Below, one piece after another: positions 35,298-49,976 of a DNA stretch of 52,210 nt. How positions within the stretch are numbered: the stretch's first letter is position 1; every line of letters starts with the position of its first letter. The stretch comes from Thiobacillus sp. GTDB lineage: Bacteria > Pseudomonadota > Gammaproteobacteria > Burkholderiales > Thiobacillaceae. A program made the position numbers and the translations under genes. The DNA lies in the NCBI GenBank assembly GCA_019459325.1, contig JAIBFA010000109.1:1-52210 (forward strand), given 5' to 3'. The notes beneath the pieces are model-generated. The model did not search any database. It had not been told where the DNA came from and worked only from the letters and a program-made list of their open reading frames with translations.

Positions 35298-35393
35298 TGG
35301 CGGAAGGGAGTGGGAGTCGAACCCACCCGGGAGCGACTGACACCCCCAACCGGATTTGAAGTCCGGCCGCACCACCAGGAACGCGTCCCTTCC
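35298..35393 (-). tRNA. selC: tRNA-Sec (anticodon TCA)
   Basis: The minus strand folds as a 96-nt tRNA with an 8-bp acceptor stem (GGAAGGGA with TCCCTTCC), discriminator G, encoded CCA, an anticodon stem CCGGA/TCCGG with loop CTTCAAA (anticodon TCA at 35357-35359), a long variable arm and a T arm with GGTTCGACTCC. The long acceptor, long variable arm and UGA-reading anticodon identify selenocysteine tRNA. It begins 3 nt after the selB stop. Confidence 0.96.
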
Positions 35394-42397: not shown

Positions 42398-45300
42398 TCA
42401 CACTTTCTCGACGTCGACCAGGAACGCCTTGAACTCCGGCGTCTGGGTATTGGCGTCGCCCACGAAGGGGGTCAGGGTATTGGTGAGGTAGCCGTTCTTG
42501 GCCACGCCCGTGAAGCCCCAGTGAATGGGAATGCCCACCGTGTAGGTCTTCTTGCCGCCTACCGTCAGGGTCATCAGGCGCCGGGTCACCACGGCCACCG
42601 CGACGATGAATCCACGTTTCGATTTCACCCGCACATGGTCGCCGGATTTGATGGCCTTCTCCTTCGCCAGGTCCTCGCCGATCTCCACGAACTGTTCAGG
42701 CTGGATGATGGCCGAGGATTTCACGTGCTTGGTCCAGAAGTGGAAATGCTCGGTGAGTCGGTAGGTGGTGGCGACAAACGGAAACTTGTCCGGTTTGCCA
42801 AAGCTTTCCCAGTCGCCCTTGAACACCCGCGCCGCCGGGCAGGCGCGTGCCACCGGGTTGTCGGGGAACATCGGGTTGGACACCAGCGGCGACTCGAAAG
42901 GCTCGTAGTGTTCCGGGAAGGGCCCGTCGTTCATCTTGTCCACCGCGAAAAAGCGCGCCACGCCCTCGGGATTCATGATGAAAGGGCTCATGCCCTCCTC
43001 CGGCGCCGAATCCGGCTTGAAGTCGGGGATGTCGGAGCCGCTCCATTTGCCGGTGCCGGCATCCCAGGCGATCAGCTTGCGCGTGGCGTCGTAGGGCTTG
43101 CCGGCCGGGTCGCAGGAGGCGCGGTTGTAGAGGATGCGGCGGTTGGCCGGCCAGGCAAAGGCCCAGTTCAGCGTCTGCCCGATGCCGAATGGATCGGCAT
43201 TGTCGCGCCGTGCCATCAGGTTGCCCTTCTCGCTCCAGGCGCCGGCAAAGATCCAGCAGCCGCATGCGGTGGAACCGTCGTCGCGCAATTCGGCAAAGCC
43301 GTTGATTTGCTCGCCGGCCTTGACCAGCACCTTGGTCGGGTCCTTGGGATCGGTCACGTCCTTCAGCGCCTTGCCGGAGAACTCCTTCGCCAGCTCTTCC
43401 GGCGAAGGGAAATCGGGGCGCCGGTGCTTCCAGCTCAGATTGAGAATCGGATCGGGGAAGGTGCCGCCGTCCTTCTTATACAGTTCGCGGATCCTGAGGA
43501 AGATGCCGGCCATGATCTCCTGGTCCGACAGCGCATCGCCGGGCGGCTCGGCGCCCTTCCAGTGCCATTGCAGCCAGCGTCCGGAATTGACCAGGCTGCC
43601 GTCCTCCTCGGCAAAGCAGGTCGACGGCAGGCGGAACACCTCGGTCTGGATCTTGGCGGGGTCGACGTCGTTGTACTCGCCGTGGTTCTGCCAGAACTCG
43701 GCCGTTTCGGTTGCCAGCGGGTCGATGGTGACGAGGTATTTCAGCTTCGCCAGCGCGCCCGACACCTTGACCTTGCACGGCGCCGACGCCAGCGGATTGA
43801 AGCCCTGGCAGACATAGCCGTTCATCATGCCGTTGTTCATGTTCTCGAACACCTGCAGGATGTCGTAGGTCTTGTCGAGCTTGGGCAGCCAGTCGTAGCA
43901 CCAGTTATTGTCCGCGGCGGCGGCGTCGCCATACCACGCCTTCATGGTGCTGACGAAGAACTTGCCGTAGTTCGACCAGTAGGACAGCTGGCCGGGCCGC
44001 AGCGGTTTGAAGGCACGCTTGTCGATGTAGGCCTGGTAATCCTGTTCCTTCTCGCCCGGCAGCGTCATGTAGCCCGGCAGCAGGTTGGACAGCAGGCCCA
44101 GATCGGTCAGCCCCTGGATGTTGGAGTGCCCACGCAGCGCATTCATGCCGCCGCCCGCCACGCCGATGTTGCCCAGCAGCAGCTGCACCATCGCGCCGGT
44201 GCGGATCATCTGCGAACCCTGCGAGTGCTGCGTCCACCCCAACGCGTACATGATGGTCATGGTCTTGTTGGAGGCCGAGGTCTCCGCGATCATCTCGCAC
44301 ACCTTGAGGAAGGCCTCCTTCGGCGTGCCGCAGATGGTCGACACCATGTCCGGCGTGTAGCGGCTGTAGTGCGCCTTCATCAGCTGGTAGACGCAACGCG
44401 GGTCCTGCAGCGTGGGATCGGTTTTGGCAAAGCCGTCCTCGCCGATCTGGTAGCCCCAAGTGGATTTGTCGTAGTTGCGCTTCTCCGCGTTGTAGCCGGA
44501 GAAGAGACCCTTCTCGAAGGTGTACGCCTCGTTCACCAGGAAGCTGAAGTCGGTGTAATTCTTCACGTATTCGTGATGAATCCTGTCGTTCGACAGCAGG
44601 TAATTGATGATTCCGCCCAGGAAGGCAATGTCGGATCCGGCACGGATCGGCGCATAGAAATCGGACACTGCCGCCGAGCGGGTGAAGCGCGGGTCGACCA
44701 CGATGAGCCGCGCCTTGCGGTGCGCCTTCGCCTCGGTCACCCACTTGAAGCCGCAGGGGTGTGCCTCGGCGGCGTTGCCGCCCATGATCAAAACCAGGTC
44801 CGTGTTCTTGATGTCAACCCAATGGTTGGTCATCGCTCCTCGGCCAAACGTCGGGGCAAGACTTGCCACCGTCGGGCCATGTCAGACACGTGCTTGATTG
44901 TCGAATGCGAGCATCCCCAGGCTACGGACGACTTTATGCGTCAGATAGCCGGTTTCGTTGCTGGAAGCGGACGCGGCCAGAAAACCGGTGGTGGTCCAGC
45001 GGTTCACCGTGGCGCCGTCCTGGTTCGTGGCCACGAAGTTCTTGTCCCGATCGTCCTTCATCAGCTTGGCGATGCGGTCTAAGGCCTCGTCCCACGAGAT
45101 GCGCGTCCATTCCTTGCCGCCGGGCGCGCGATATTCCGGGGTTTGCAGGCGATTGGGGCTGTGCACGAAATCGAGCAGGCCGGCACCCTTCGGGCACAGG
45201 GTGCCGCGATTCACCGGATGGTCCGGATCGCCTTCGATATGGATGATTTCGGTGTGAGCGTTTTTGGACTTGTCGCCCAGGCTGTATAGCAGGACGCCGC

Positions 45301-45469
45301 AGCCCACCGAGCAGTAGGGACAGGTGTTGCGGGTTTCGGTGGCGCGGGCGAGCTTGAAAGCACGCACCTGCGCCAGCGCCTCGCCGGGGGCAAACCCCAG
45401 CGCCGCCAGACTGGAACTGCCGACCCCGGCCGCGCAAATCCTGAAGAACTGTCTTCGAGTCACTTGCAT
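42398..45469 (-). CDS. fdnG: Formate dehydrogenase catalytic subunit, selenoprotein
   Basis: A 1023-residue molybdopterin enzyme read through an in-frame TGA at 44882-44884, residue 196, the same position as selenocysteine in E. coli FdnG. Before the TGA: a twin-arginine signal ([15 protein letters not shown]), the [4Fe-4S] motif CPYCSVGCG and ...[10 protein letters not shown]. After it: [24 protein letters not shown], continuing as a standard FdnG to the stop. Splitting it into two genes would be wrong. It oxidises formate in the periplasm. GGAGG precedes the ATG, just after an 11-bp inverted repeat. tRNA-Sec, SelA and SelB are encoded downstream in the same operon. Confidence 0.97.
44846..44884 (-). 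promoter_or_regulatory. Bacterial SECIS element downstream of the Sec codon
   Basis: On the minus strand, directly after TGA, comes CATGGCCCGACGGT, then an apical hairpin GGCAA-GTC-TTGCC. From memory, the sequence around GGCAAGTCTTGC closely follows E. coli fdnG (GCGAGUCUUGC). The distance from UGA to the apical loop is what SelB needs. It lies entirely within the coding sequence. Confidence 0.88.
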
Positions 45470-45617: not shown

Positions 45618-45896
45618 TTAGTGTTCCCCGGCCTGGAGTTGGGACAGGCTCACCCCCGCCGACACCAGATAATCCCGCACATGGCGCAGCTCTTGTTTGG
45701 TGCAGGTGTTGCTGTTGTGCGGGCGGTGAATGAAACCTTCCACGCCGTTCAGCACCACGCGGAAACTCGCTCCGTGATGCGGTTCCACCTTGGCACCCAG
45801 ATGCGTCAGCATCGATTCCACCTCGCGCCAGTGGACATTGCCGCTGACCGGGCCTTCAAAAATTGAGCGCAACAGGCTCTCATGTTTGTGACTCAT
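45618..45896 (-). CDS. HicA-like small protein without a HicB partner
   Basis: A 92-residue protein from MSHKHESLLRSIFEGPVSGNVHWREVESML, followed by THLGAKVEPHHGASFRVVLNGVEGFIHRPHNSNTCTKQELRHVRDYL. It has the dsRBD-like fold of HicA mRNA-interferase toxins, but the usual His of the G-S-H motif is replaced (HHGASFRV). No HicB antitoxin gene is adjacent. It is therefore probably not a functional toxin and may bind RNA. An in-frame start 10 codons earlier is possible. The gene is downstream of the large GGDEF/EAL gene on the same strand. Confidence 0.75.
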   Translation of the reverse strand: MSHKHESLLRSIFEGPVSGNVHWREVESMLTHLGAKVEPHHGASFRVVLNGVEGFIHRPHNSNTCTKQELRHVRDYLVSAGVSLSQLQAGEH

Positions 45897-45963
45897 GGCA
45901 GCACTCAAAGGGCATCCAACATGCATTCAGCATAGAACCTGAGCTGTCACAACGCGAATCGTG

Positions 45964-48900
45964 TTACAGGAGGGTGTCCGCCTTGCCGGCCGGCGCCATG
46001 CGTTCACGCAAAAATTCTTTCAGCGCTGCCGATGCAAGGGGGCGACTGAACAGGTAGCCCTGCACCCCCTGGCACCCCTCCCTACGCAGAAACGCCAGTT
46101 GCTCCTGCGTTTCCACGCCTTCGGCAACGGTATCCAGACGCAGACTATGCGCCAGCTGAATGACGGCGCGGACAATGGCTGCATTGTCCGGATCGGTATT
46201 GACGTCGCGTACAAAGGAGCGGTCGATCTTCAGCCGATCGACCGCAAAGCGCTTGAGGTAGCTGAGCGACGAATAGCCGGTGCCGAAATCGTCGATCGAC
46301 AGCCGCACGCCGAGCACCTTCAGCCGCCGTACCGTGTCCAGGGTGTTCTCCACGTCCTGCAACAGGATGGACTCGGTCAGTTCCAGTTCCAGCAGATGCG
46401 CCGGCAGGCCGCTCCGGTCGAGCGCACCCGCCACCATCTCGACCAGGCCGGCGCGGCGGACCTGCAGGGCAGACAGGTTGACCGACAGGGTCAGGTCGGG
46501 CCATCCGGCCTGACGCCAGCTCTGTGCCTGGCGACAGGCTTCTTCCATCACCCAGGCGCCGATCGACACAATGAGGCCGCAGTCTTCCGCCACCGGTATG
46601 AAGCGGGCCGGCACGACCTCGCCGAGTTCCGGATTGTGCCAGCGCAGCAAGGCTTCCATCCCGATCACCCTGCCGCTGCTGATCTCCATCTGCGGTTGAT
46701 AGTGCAGGTAAAACTCGGCCCGGAATAGCGCCTGGTTCAGACGGTTCTGCAGCAGCAGGTGCTCGTGTGCCTGCTGGTTCATCCTGTCGTCGAAGAAGCG
46801 ATAGATATTTCGGCCGGCGTCCTTGGCGTTGTACATCGCCGTATCGGCCTTTTGCAGCAGGCTGTCGAAGTCCTTGCCATCCTCGGGATAAATTGCGATG
46901 CCGATGCTGCCGGAGGTATTCAGCACATGGCCATTGATCTCCGCCGGCTCGGCCAGATGCACGAGGATCTTGCTGGCGATGCGCTCTACGGTTTCCAGGT
47001 CGGGGATGTCATTCAGCAGCAGGATGAATTCGTCACCGCCCTGCCGGCTGATGGTGTCGCTCTCGCGCATGCACTGGGACAGACGCGTGACGACCTCCAG
47101 CAGCAGCCGGTCGCCGGCCATGTGCCCCAGCGTATCGTTCACCACCTTGAAATTGTCGAGGTCGAGGAACAGCATGGCCACCCGCGACCGGGAACGCTCG
47201 GCCATGGCGAGGGCATGTTTGAAACGGTCGCGCAGCAGCACGCGGTTGGGCAGGCCGGTAAGCGCATCGTGGTGGGCCAGGAACTCGATGCGCGCCTCGG
47301 CCTGTTTGCGCTCGGTGATGTCGCGGTCCACCCCCTGAAATCCGATCAGTTCCCCGGTTTCGCTGAACAGCGCCGAAGCATTGGATTCGAAGGTGCGATA
47401 ACTGCCATCGCGATGGCGCCAGCGCAACACGATGTTTTGCCAGCCTTGTTGGGCTGACACCGCTCTTACAAATGTCTCGTGAAGCAAGGGCAAGTCATCC
47501 GGATGTACCAGGCTGTCGGAATCCATCACCAGGAATTCCTCTGCGCTATAGCCCAGATTGGCGAGGCCCCGCTGATTGCTGTAGGTATGCCGCCCCTGCA
47601 CGTCGATCGACCAGATCCAGTCGGCGGAGTGTTCCGCCATGGCACGGAAGCGCGCTTCGCTCTCGCGCAGGGCCTCTTCGGCTCGCCTGCGGTCGGTGAT
47701 GTCCACGAAATTGACGACCGCGCCCACCAGTTCGCCATTGTGGTACATGGGGTGGGACCAGTACTCCACCGGGAAGCTGCTGCCATCCTTGCGCCAGTGC
47801 ACCTCGCTGTCGACGTGCGTGGATTTGCCCTGCAGGGTGGAGTGGTGAAGATGACAGTCTTGCTTGGGGTACGGACGGCCGTCCGGATAGGTGTGATGAA
47901 TGAGCGGATGCACGCTCTTGCCGAGCATCTCTTCCTGCGTGTAACCCAGCATGTTGAGGCAGGCCGGATTCACGAAGGTGCAGAGTCCCTGGGTGTCGAC
48001 CCCAAAGATCGCCTCGGGGGAGGAATCCAGCAGCAGGCGGAAGCGCTCCTCGCTCTCGCGCAGGGCCGCCAGCGACGCGCGATGGCCCATGGCCACGCCA
48101 AGATCAGTGGCCAGTTTTTCCAGCAGCATCACTTTCTCCAGCCCGAACGTGTGCGGTTCGTGACTGTAGACATTGAGCGCGCCGACCACCCGCCCATTCA
48201 CCCGCAACGGTGTGGCAGCCGACGAACGGTAGCCCTGCGCGCGTGCGCGCTCCCGCCACGGCGCGAACCGCTGGTTGACTTCGGTATCGTTGTTGACCAC
48301 GGTGGTGCCCATGCGGATGGCGGTACCTGTCGGCCCCCGTCCTTGCGGCGAGTCGTCGCAACGGATATCCACCTGGCTGAGATAGTCCTGGGCAAATCCG
48401 GCCTCGGCCACCGGACGCACCGTCAGGCCGTCTTCATCCAGCAGGCCGATCCAGGCCATGCGAAACAGGTCGCCCCTGATCATTTCCTGGCAGATGCGCT
48501 CCATCAGTTCCTGCTCGGACAGATCCGCCATCAGCATCTGGTTGACCGCCGCGATCGTTTGCAGCAGCAGATTGCGCCGCTGCATGACCAGCGCCTCGCG
48601 CTTCTGTTCGGTCACTTCGCGCAGGCTGCCCACCATGCGCACAGGCTTGCCGCTTTCGTCGCGCTCCACCACTTTGCCGCGGTTTTGCACCCAGATCAGG
48701 CTGCCATCCATGTGACGGATGCGGTGTTCGCAATCGAAAGCTGGCTGCCCGCCCAGACAGCCCTGGATGGCCGCCATCACCGTTTCCCGCTCCGGGCCGT
48801 GTACGCGGGCGAGGGCCTTTTGCCAGGCGTGCTGATGCTGCCGCGGGTTCAGTCCCATCAGCCGTGCCCACTGCGCGTTATGTCGCACCCGCCCACTCGA

Positions 48901-49299
48901 GAGTTCCCAGTCCCATATGCCTTCACCGATGATGGCCAGGGCATGGGCCTGTTCATCCCCGGCGGCGGGCGGTTTGTGGATCGACCTGTCCGTCTTCTTC
49001 ACCGCGCCGGGGTCGCGCCCCTCAGCCAGCAAAGCCTTGGCGAGGCGGCGCTGCTTTCTCGCCTCGCCGAGCGAGATGTCCGGATAGACCCCCAACGCCA
49101 GGGTTTTGCGCTTGCCGCCAAAGCGGTAATCCAGTCGCCAGTAGCGTGAACCGTCCGGCCGCACCAGCAGATACATGCCGCCACCGTCTGCCAGTTTGAC
49201 CGGCTTGTCGCCCGGTTGGGTCTGGCGGATATGGCTATCGGTGAGGGGGGCAGCTGCACGGGCCATGAAGGCTTGGACGGGATAACGCGGTGGCGGCAT
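45964..49299 (-). CDS. Integrase arm-type DNA-binding domain fused to PAS/GAF/PAS/PAS-GGDEF-EAL
   Basis: A 1111-residue protein with an unusual layout. Residues 15-100 (LTDSHIRQTQPGDKPVKLADGGGMYLLVRPDGSRYW and LALGVYPDISLGEARKQR) are the DUF4102 arm-binding domain otherwise found at the N-terminus of P4-type phage integrases. Next come PAS (118-232), GAF (245-405), PAS (415-535) and PAS (545-660). GGDEF is intact (GGDEF at 754-758) and EAL likewise (EAL at 882-884, DDFGTG at 1003-1008), so both cyclase and phosphodiesterase activity are possible. There is no membrane segment. A start at 49266 (MARAAAPLTDS) is equally possible; no good ribosome binding site decides it. Confidence 0.92.
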   Translation of the reverse strand: MPPPRYPVQAFMARAAAPLTDSHIRQTQPGDKPVKLADGGGMYLLVRPDGSRYWRLDYRFGGKRKTLALGVYPDISLGEARKQRRLAKALLAEGRDPGAVKKTDRSIHKPPAAGDEQAHALAIIGEGIWDWELSSGRVRHNAQWARLMGLNPRQHQHAWQKALARVHGPERETVMAAIQGCLGGQPAFDCEHRIRHMDGSLIWVQNRGKVVERDESGKPVRMVGSLREVTEQKREALVMQRRNLLLQTIAAVNQMLMADLSEQELMERICQEMIRGDLFRMAWIGLLDEDGLTVRPVAEAGFAQDYLSQVDIRCDDSPQGRGPTGTAIRMGTTVVNNDTEVNQRFAPWRERARAQGYRSSAATPLRVNGRVVGALNVYSHEPHTFGLEKVMLLEKLATDLGVAMGHRASLAALRESEERFRLLLDSSPEAIFGVDTQGLCTFVNPACLNMLGYTQEEMLGKSVHPLIHHTYPDGRPYPKQDCHLHHSTLQGKSTHVDSEVHWRKDGSSFPVEYWSHPMYHNGELVGAVVNFVDITDRRRAEEALRESEARFRAMAEHSADWIWSIDVQGRHTYSNQRGLANLGYSAEEFLVMDSDSLVHPDDLPLLHETFVRAVSAQQGWQNIVLRWRHRDGSYRTFESNASALFSETGELIGFQGVDRDITERKQAEARIEFLAHHDALTGLPNRVLLRDRFKHALAMAERSRSRVAMLFLDLDNFKVVNDTLGHMAGDRLLLEVVTRLSQCMRESDTISRQGGDEFILLLNDIPDLETVERIASKILVHLAEPAEINGHVLNTSGSIGIAIYPEDGKDFDSLLQKADTAMYNAKDAGRNIYRFFDDRMNQQAHEHLLLQNRLNQALFRAEFYLHYQPQMEISSGRVIGMEALLRWHNPELGEVVPARFIPVAEDCGLIVSIGAWVMEEACRQAQSWRQAGWPDLTLSVNLSALQVRRAGLVEMVAGALDRSGLPAHLLELELTESILLQDVENTLDTVRRLKVLGVRLSIDDFGTGYSSLSYLKRFAVDRLKIDRSFVRDVNTDPDNAAIVRAVIQLAHSLRLDTVAEGVETQEQLAFLRREGCQGVQGYLFSRPLASAALKEFLRERMAPAGKADTLL

Positions 49300-49517
49300 C
49301 CTACGCGTCGGGCACCGGCCCGCATACCGTCAAACTGTCCTGTGCCGGCTGGTATAAATGGCAGAAAATCCCACAAAATCAGCAATGTTTTAGCGGTGCC
49401 GCAGCCGTCTGACGACCGCCGGCGTCGACGCCAGCGGCTGGCACGATGCGGGCGGCGGAGGGGGTCCGCCGACGCGGCGGCGGTTGGCGCAAACAGCCTT
49501 CCTCCGCCCCGCTATTT

Positions 49518-49976
49518 TTAGCGCGGCACCACGCGGGCGTTCTCGCCGCTGCCTTCAACCCGTACGCGCATGCCTTCCCGCAGGCGGTCATCCCGCGGCT
49601 GCGTAATCGTTACGCGGCCACCGGTCACCATGTTGACGGTGATCCGCTGCGCATCCCTTTTGGCGATTTTGCTCTCGGCATAGGTGCCAGCCACCCCGCC
49701 CAATACCGCACCTGCCACCGTGGCGGTGGTACTGTCGCCCACCCCGGCACCAAGCAGTCCGCCTGCCACCGCGCCAACGGCTGTCCCTACCCCCAACTTG
49801 TACTTGTCATCCACCTCGATATTTTCCAACTGCGCGATGGTGCCGTCGCGCTCCGACTGGCTCGTGGCCGTGCTGCCCGTTTCTCCATATTTCGTTCCAC
49901 CCAGGCTGCCCATGTCGGCACACCCCCCCACCAAGGCTACACACAACAATAATGGCACTGCAAGTCGCTGATTCAT
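49518..49976 (-). CDS. Glycine-zipper outer-membrane lipoprotein (SlyB/OmpA-linker type)
   Basis: A 152-residue protein with a lipoprotein signal (LLLCVALVGGCADMG). A glycine-zipper 2TM segment (GVGTAVGAVAGGLLGAGVGDSTTATVAGAVLGGVAGTYAESK) fits the family of envelope lipoproteins like SlyB and PcP. A short beta-rich C-terminus follows (ITVNMVTGGRVTI...GMRVRVEGSG). It probably stabilises the outer membrane. AAGGAGA precedes the ATG. It is divergent from the MscS gene. Confidence 0.87.
   Translation of the reverse strand: MNQRLAVPLLLCVALVGGCADMGSLGGTKYGETGSTATSQSERDGTIAQLENIEVDDKYKLGVGTAVGAVAGGLLGAGVGDSTTATVAGAVLGGVAGTYAESKIAKRDAQRITVNMVTGGRVTITQPRDDRLREGMRVRVEGSGENARVVPR

Follow-up and report, generated by a model that had tools for sequence, protein, structure and literature searches.

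In E. coli, the trigger phosphodiesterase PdeL, which carries a LuxR-type helix-turn-helix (HTH) and an EAL domain, is described in the consulted part of PMC5052742 as binding its own promoter and autoregulating in dependence on cyclic dimeric guanosine monophosphate (c-di-GMP). Autoregulation is also reported for P4-type integrases, which repress their own promoters (in the part consulted of PMC7286903); in the case of IntS, repression is ascribed to binding adjacent to the −10 box (likewise, PMC2951348). Here, we describe a gene of Thiobacillus sp. (assembly GCA_019459325.1, labelled G000, 88% complete) that joins the DUF4102 arm DNA-binding domain of such integrases to a c-di-GMP enzyme. 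It lies on the minus strand of contig JAIBFA010000109.1, within positions 1-52,210, the whole stretch analysed, hereafter the window. On comparative sequence evidence, we consider it probable that the enzyme captured the 5′ end of an integrase gene (int) with its autoregulatory sites, and that it continues to control its own gene by binding to the promoter.

Like PdeL, the fusion unites DNA binding and an EAL enzyme in a single polypeptide; unlike PdeL, it uses an integrase arm, is preceded by tandem direct repeats rather than an imperfect palindrome, and has additional PAS, GAF and GGDEF domains. With the DUF4102/P4-type (IntSXT-group) integrases it shares the arm fold (3ju0 of HAI7; 3jtz and 3rmp of HPI), a candidate code at residues 46 and 53, and tandem direct and inverted arm-type repeats before the gene, although in the window only repeat 1 is exact. 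It differs from them in lacking a core-binding or catalytic domain, in being joined to a sensory c-di-GMP enzyme, and in standing mostly at one host locus and not beside a tRNA gene. In the mechanism that we propose, the 5′ part of an integrase gene of the DUF4102 type would have been joined, in a single event, to a PAS/GAF-GGDEF-EAL enzyme of an ancestral Thiobacillus. It would have brought the arm domain together with the arm-type repeats found ahead of such genes, and the recombinase part would have been lost. The protein would bind its own promoter and autoregulate through the inherited integrase loop. This autoregulation would be coupled to the sensory enzyme as in a PdeL-like trigger enzyme, and c-di-GMP and ligands of the PAS and GAF domains may affect it. 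Binding to its own promoter is proposed because the residues typical of TGACGG(T/C)A sites are kept and the repeats are kept where the promoter would be.

The open reading frame (ORF) 49299..45964 is free of stops and encodes 1111 amino acids (aa). In this frame, residues 19-103 match PF13356 (Arm-DNA-bind_3, DUF4102; E 1.9e-25; score 89.2 bits, cut-off 27) over profile positions 1-82 of 83. Pfam then finds PAS_3, GAF_2, PAS, PAS, GGDEF (E 4e-50) and EAL (E 6e-76), and gives no match at E<=1 to a tyrosine-recombinase core-binding or catalytic domain and none to a LuxR-type HTH. The earlier note had read the same from the letters: an arm domain without a catalytic integrase domain, then PAS-GAF-PAS-PAS-GGDEF-EAL with intact motifs. 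Both RESD-N5-GGDEF and the EAL motif are undamaged, and E871, N930, E962, D992, D993, K1013, E1049 and Q1069, which we take to be the catalytic residues of the EAL domain, are present in invariant columns. The arm is modelled well by AlphaFold (predicted local distance difference test, pLDDT, 88), and by Foldseek it matches the three integrase arm structures named above; the model of the whole protein (predicted template modelling score, pTM, 0.38) served for domain boundaries only. The ORF is thus open and encodes the fusion, as had been noted, but its start is most likely ATG 49266 (ORF residue 12), giving 1100 aa, rather than 49299, because the relatives have a common N-terminus, MARxAxPLTD. 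The ATG at 49299 coincides with part of a −10-like element. Residues are numbered below in the 1100-aa protein.

The fusion is conserved across species, a point that the earlier note had proposed checking. A profile built from 24 fusion arms (alignment A2) was run against 56 Thiobacillus genomes, and 34 have a fusion-type arm scoring 150-178 bits; the remaining arm matches among those listed (E<=1e-30) reach at most 135 bits and lie in frames of 412-510 aa. Two of the 34 genes, that of G008, whose frame is broken, and that of G030, whose frame is open, were left out of alignment A1. Each of the 32 aligned fusions (808-1231 aa) is recognised, at E<=0.001, by the Pfam models of the arm, of GGDEF and of EAL. 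Their middle region is shuffled: some have no first PAS domain, no GAF domain or neither of them, and additional PAS domains occur in others, whereas the arm and the catalytic GGDEF-EAL end are constant. The locus is a conserved host neighbourhood. When ten neighbours of the window locus were sought in the fetched stretches, at least one was common to 28 of the 34 genes, and none was within the stretch for the other six. A HicA-like gene lies behind the fusion in 25, most of which also have MscS and/or a lipoprotein gene in front; of these neighbours, L073 has MscS only and L093 and L094 the lipoprotein only. A metagenome-assembled genome labelled Rhizobium sp. (L040) also carries the Thiobacillus fusion, and its label is probably wrong.

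Selection was estimated by the Nei-Gojobori method from 12 chosen close pairs, or from fewer for domains that some of them lack. The summed ratio of nonsynonymous to synonymous substitution (dN/dS) is 0.17 in the arm, 0.12 in GGDEF and 0.10 in EAL, and 0.48 in the linker; in the sensory part it is 0.23 (PASa), 0.20 (GAF), 0.13 (PASb) and 0.16 (PASc). Mean amino-acid identity is 0.76 in the arm against 0.42 in the linker, so preservation of the linker, which had been proposed as a check on the fusion, was not observed. The arm domain is, by these ratios, under purifying selection while the sensory domains come and go. In most close homologues the protein begins with the arm, rather than near residue 115, and has it in the same frame. 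Three armless proteins are exceptions: L047, and also L052 and L054, the latter two lying outside the clade of fusions. These three share with the fusions the order of PAS and GGDEF-EAL (L052 also GAF) and are 70-76% identical to them in GGDEF-EAL; they differ in having no arm and no intact TGACGG pair found upstream, their start positions being rough. The fusion is real, well beyond any coincidence, and neither an annotation error nor a recent accident.

A 41-row tree of the GGDEF-EAL part places two armless homologues, L052 (Thiobacillaceae) and L054 (Rhodocyclaceae), outside the fusions and the third, L047, inside, so that the arm changes twice, most simply by one gain and one loss. The fork that unites the fusions and L047 apart from L054 has modest support (86/72), and L054 and L047 are flagged as long branches. 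In an arm tree built from few columns, with 70 of its 125 inner branches open, the 24 arms of A2 come together as a group among 107 others (Shimodaira-Hasegawa-like approximate likelihood ratio test, SH-aLRT, 96). Without rows of no class the fusions form one group; on all rows the label takes two changes, and the additional row is apparently L254, a flagged long branch. Outside the genus, no GGDEF-EAL fusion was found among the matches listed from overlapping samples of 399 genomes of the order, 143 of the class and 299 of the phylum, nor any relative in one scan of viral contigs. These data bear on the possibility, raised from the outset, of a functionless chance join at an integrase insertion, or of an annotation artefact. 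The origin was indeed probably a join with an int 5′ end, 22 of the 56 genomes show no fusion-type arm, and G038 has only GAF and PAS remnants at the locus (L143). Nevertheless, presence in 34 of 56 genomes, the clustering of the arms, purifying selection and the conservation of a matching site show that the join has been kept since, and we give a functionless join hardly any credence.

The matching site is a tandem repeat, TTGACGGTA-N4-TGACGGCATC. In 25 aligned upstream regions, the conserved blocks are TTYGTACCA, TTGACGGTA, TGACGGCATC and TANNAT, and most genes keep TGACGG(T/C)A repeats about 45-69 base pairs (bp) ahead of the start codon. The TTYGTACCA block, about 15-20 bp ahead of repeat 1, was not noticed in the printed upstream regions of integrases. 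Information per base, taken at automatic best-match positions in 24 of the 34 promoters (nine near-duplicates and L097, which has no pair, being dropped), is 1.72 bits for repeat 1 and 1.37 for repeat 2; the 4-bp spacer has 0.59, and 12 bases far upstream have 0.10. Under a lenient rule, the pair occurs in 30 of 34 fusion promoters versus 2 of 34 control regions (−500..−250), and in 17 of 2000 random windows drawn from seven fetched loci that themselves contain true sites; under a strict rule (at most two mismatches), 27 of 32 promoters keep it. None of the 13 HicA loci that have no fusion beside them shows it (11 in genomes without the gene, two in genomes with it elsewhere), and the seven armless homologues, whose start positions are rough, give one weak match and no intact pair. 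With at most one mismatch, TTGACGGTANNNNTGACGGCATC has 21 matches in the 56 genomes, all at fusion genes. A wider regulon is unsupported: 17 of the 20 two-mismatch matches lie away from fusion genes and three at them. Each of the 17 is crossed on one strand by an open frame of at least 119 codons, which is weak evidence of coding in G+C-rich DNA.

The repeats could instead be kept only as a core promoter, with TTGACG as the −35 box and the arm retained for dimerisation or protein contacts. TTGACG is near the sigma-70 −35 consensus and TANNAT lies downstream, but the two are 23-25 bp apart (by eye), and no sigma-70-type promoter was found in window positions 49200-49520. Moreover, repeat 2 is nearly as conserved as repeat 1 yet is no promoter box, the site-matching Asp46 and Arg53 are invariant, and the intact pair is missing at the armless homologues and at the HicA loci just mentioned. 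This explanation is therefore unlikely. If the protein does bind its own promoter, the sign of regulation could be repression by occlusion or activator-like recruitment; activation is as possible as repression because the repeats lie upstream of TANNAT, in the −35 zone, and no promoter of the sigma-70 type was found.

Ordinary DUF4102 integrase genes have a similar arrangement. Upstream of them stand direct repeats 12 bp apart, with inverted copies reaching the start codon, and many have an apparent tRNA 3′ end upstream (by eye). Examples are TTGACGGTATATTTGACGGCAC (L109) and TTACCGTCATG (L110); other integrases have TGGGGGTA or TGTTGGTA in the identical layout. Several fusion genes still present CCGTC directly before the start codon. 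Five integrases of 622-677 aa (L100, L101, L102, L351 and L352) have a long C-terminal extension that is alike among them (by eye). Exact TGACGGTA-N4-TGACGGYA pairs number 33 in the 56 genomes and 0 in the reversed control, and their spacing is always 4 bp although 3-5 was allowed; 19 are at fusion genes and 14 elsewhere, of which 13 were inspected. Nine of the 14 stand before a common GAAACMATTGARTGGGA stretch, which looks like the end of a family of mobile elements in Thiobacillus. In L148, L152, L157, L164, L166, L170, L173, L174 and L175, TGACGGTA-N4-TGACGGTA is followed by GAAACMATTGARTGGGA, and the sequences diverge beyond it.

Such pairs would fit a protein whose arm binds the attachment (att) arm sites of resident mobile elements and restrains their integrases, its own promoter being secondary. 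Nevertheless, nine of the 14 off-fusion pairs lie in fusion-bearing genomes, about as the 34 of 56 predicts, and the site that is conserved in a fixed position is that of the fusion's own promoter; we regard this role as improbable. Even less can be said for a sensor of integration-site occupancy, which the earlier note had proposed and which we reject almost entirely. Integrase arm domains do read sites flanking att, but the gene is without a recombinase domain, no other PF13356/DUF4102 protein was found in assembly G000, and the conserved sites belong to the promoter of the gene itself. The window has a single tRNA gene, that of tRNA-Sec, about 10 kb off; no search was made for an att core.

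A further argument for own-promoter binding comes from a correlation between arm residues and repeats. A set of 107 arm-domain loci, several of them in short frames, was classed by the repeat TG-xyz-G(T/C)A occurring at least twice upstream; 27 have no unit twice, five fall in singleton classes, and 75 (72 distinct) were used. ACG sites (TGACGG) go with Asp46/Arg53 in 14/14 loci, GGG sites (TGGGGG) with Lys46/Glu53 in 40/40, TTG sites (TGTTGG) with Ala, Ser or Asn at 46 and Gln53 in 14/14, and ATG sites with Asn46/Gln53 in 4/4, while GCG sites show two Asp/Arg and one Asn/Arg. The columns with the highest mutual information are 46 (1.55 bits) and 53 (1.47 bits), of 1.78, followed by 55. In the AlphaFold arm model, residue 46 is in strand 41-49 and residues 53 and 55 are in strand 52-61, so that the three can share one face. 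The switch is also seen jointly in a close pair, L200 (TTG, Ala/Gln) versus L230 (GCG, Asp/Arg), which are 87% identical elsewhere. On a poorly resolved tree built without the code columns, the classes take 19-21 changes, with supported branches forcing about two per class. Applied to a class-wide sample of 29 loci, of which eight fall under no rule and 10 lack a repeated site, the rule set agrees at all 11 testable ones, which by our arithmetic is expected in 1 of 1,980 label permutations. The correlation is thus a candidate recognition code for arm domains, and all 32 aligned fusions retain Asp46 and Arg53, the residues of the TGACGG class. At the level of sequence, these comparisons demonstrate the fusion, its conservation, the selection on it and a matched pair of residues and site. 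The regulator directed by DNA that the earlier note had imagined is borne out to that extent: the arm looks DNA-directed and has a specific matching repeat, the binding itself being predicted.

Several observations weigh against autoregulation through the captured sites. No fusion-type arm is seen in 22 of the 56 genomes, some of them incomplete, and for this reason the gene is probably dispensable. The window promoter is itself among the five of 32 that fail the strict rule: repeat 2 has decayed in it and in its sister L067 although the domain residues are intact, and the close relatives L067 and L068 have lost repeat 2 as well. Where Arg48 or Lys52 is altered (L087, L098 and L097), an intact pair is missing in 3/3, against 2/29 where they are unaltered (Fisher 0.002), but this co-loss amounts to two events (L087 with L098; L097) at positions picked post hoc. 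Because of these losses, autoregulation may be weaker or absent in some lineages of Thiobacillus, that of the window among them. Furthermore, TTGACG resembles a −35 hexamer, and promoter function could explain part of its conservation. As for the code, Asp-Arg loci without a unit twice number nine in the first set and 4/6 out of sample, and L119 is an exception (Asp-Arg with TGTCAGTA/TGACAGTA, a singleton class). The integrase arms nearest by identity outside columns 46 and 53 are Lys-Glu types.

An arm domain has also been joined to another enzyme. In L345, L346 and L353 (G291:C17, G191:C12 and G321:C153, all of family f51 of the same order), an arm of the Lys/Glu type is fused to an aminotransferase; the Pfam and NCBIfam searches covered L346 alone, and its best NCBIfam match, under the cut-off, is alanine aminotransferase. 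The three came from 12 longer frames that were fetched, of which eight are integrases by eye and one (L349) has no arm match; L254, a locus of the code test, proved to be this aminotransferase fusion. GGGGTAT and inverted ATACCCC elements precede the start in all three (by eye), the full TGGGGGTA unit having one match, in L345. As in the GGDEF-EAL fusion, the arm is on a non-recombinase enzyme and arm-type-like GGGGTA elements are upstream, whereas the enzyme, the site class (Lys-Glu) and the family differ. Because this fusion has both the arm and the GGGGTAT/ATACCCC elements, it is probable that int 5′ ends have been captured along with their sites on two or more occasions. More tentatively, and with rather less than even confidence, the int 5′ end with its arm-type repeats might be a portable autoregulatory cassette, captured by host enzymes at least twice, which would then read their own promoters by way of residues 46 and 53. 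The Thiobacillus protein would be a bistable trigger enzyme made from a phage part, with its promoter occupancy set by c-di-GMP turnover and by PAS/GAF input.

The Thiobacillus fusion is a conserved case of an integrase arm domain that seemingly works outside recombination, along with its target sites. It is also a c-di-GMP enzyme with a predicted and exactly placed DNA target, and DNA-directed c-di-GMP signalling is for this reason directly testable. If the residue/repeat correlation is a true code, arm-type sites would be predictable from protein sequence in a very common integrase family. Among the open-access PMC matches listed (titles and abstract starts), no description of the fusion or of the code was found, nor a paper with DUF4102 or Arm-DNA-bind together with GGDEF. 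The coordinates of the features are collected in Table 1.

Table 1. The fusion gene, its domains and its upstream elements in the window
Feature	Position	Strand	Basis or remark
Fusion gene, 1100 aa	45964..49266	-	Conserved ATG 49266; MARxAxPLTD start common to relatives
Arm-DNA-bind_3 (DUF4102) domain, residues 8-92	48991..49245	-	Pfam, AlphaFold, Foldseek
Asp46 codon; Arg53 codon	49129-49131; 49108-49110	-	Both invariant in 32/32 fusions
Variable linker, residues 93-112	48931..48990	-	Mean pairwise aa identity 0.42, summed dN/dS 0.48; pLDDT <50 at 92-113
First PAS, residues 128-214	48625..48885	-	Pfam PAS_3; some relatives without it
GAF, residues 249-393	48088..48522	-	Pfam GAF_2
Second PAS, residues 407-523	47698..48048	-	Pfam PAS
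Third PAS, about residues 530-650	47317..47679	-	Three Pfam PAS_3 stretches; limits from alignment
GGDEF, residues 664-820, RESD I-site and GGDEF intact	46807..47277	-	Pfam; GGDEF and I-site R, D are invariant alignment columns
EAL, residues 841-1076	46039..46746	-	Pfam; invariant alignment columns
Arm-type direct repeat 1, TTGACGGTA, exact	49325..49333	-	
Position of direct repeat 2, decayed to GGCCGGTG	49313..49320	-	Differs from TGACGGYA at 3 positions; most relatives have it intact
Possible inverted arm-type site TGGCGGCA	49291..49298	+	1 mismatch; exact TGACGGCA in L069, L071, L085
−10-like element TAGGAT	49298..49303	-	TANNAT in most relatives
Conserved upstream block TTTATACCA	49350..49358	-	TTYGTACCA in most relatives; T59, T63, A64, C65 invariant in 25/25 rows

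Three neighbouring features of the window complete the picture. At 45618-45926 lies the gene of the small HicA-toxin-like protein, which scores 25.8 bits, just below the Pfam cut-off of 27, and is at least 80% identical in 39 of the 56 genomes. It was rejected as a partner of the fusion and left out of the unit because it is also found in genomes without the fusion. At 42398-45469, a formate dehydrogenase is interrupted between 44882 and 44869 by a stop that probably encodes selenocysteine, and the tRNA-Sec gene (35302-35393) is in the same window.

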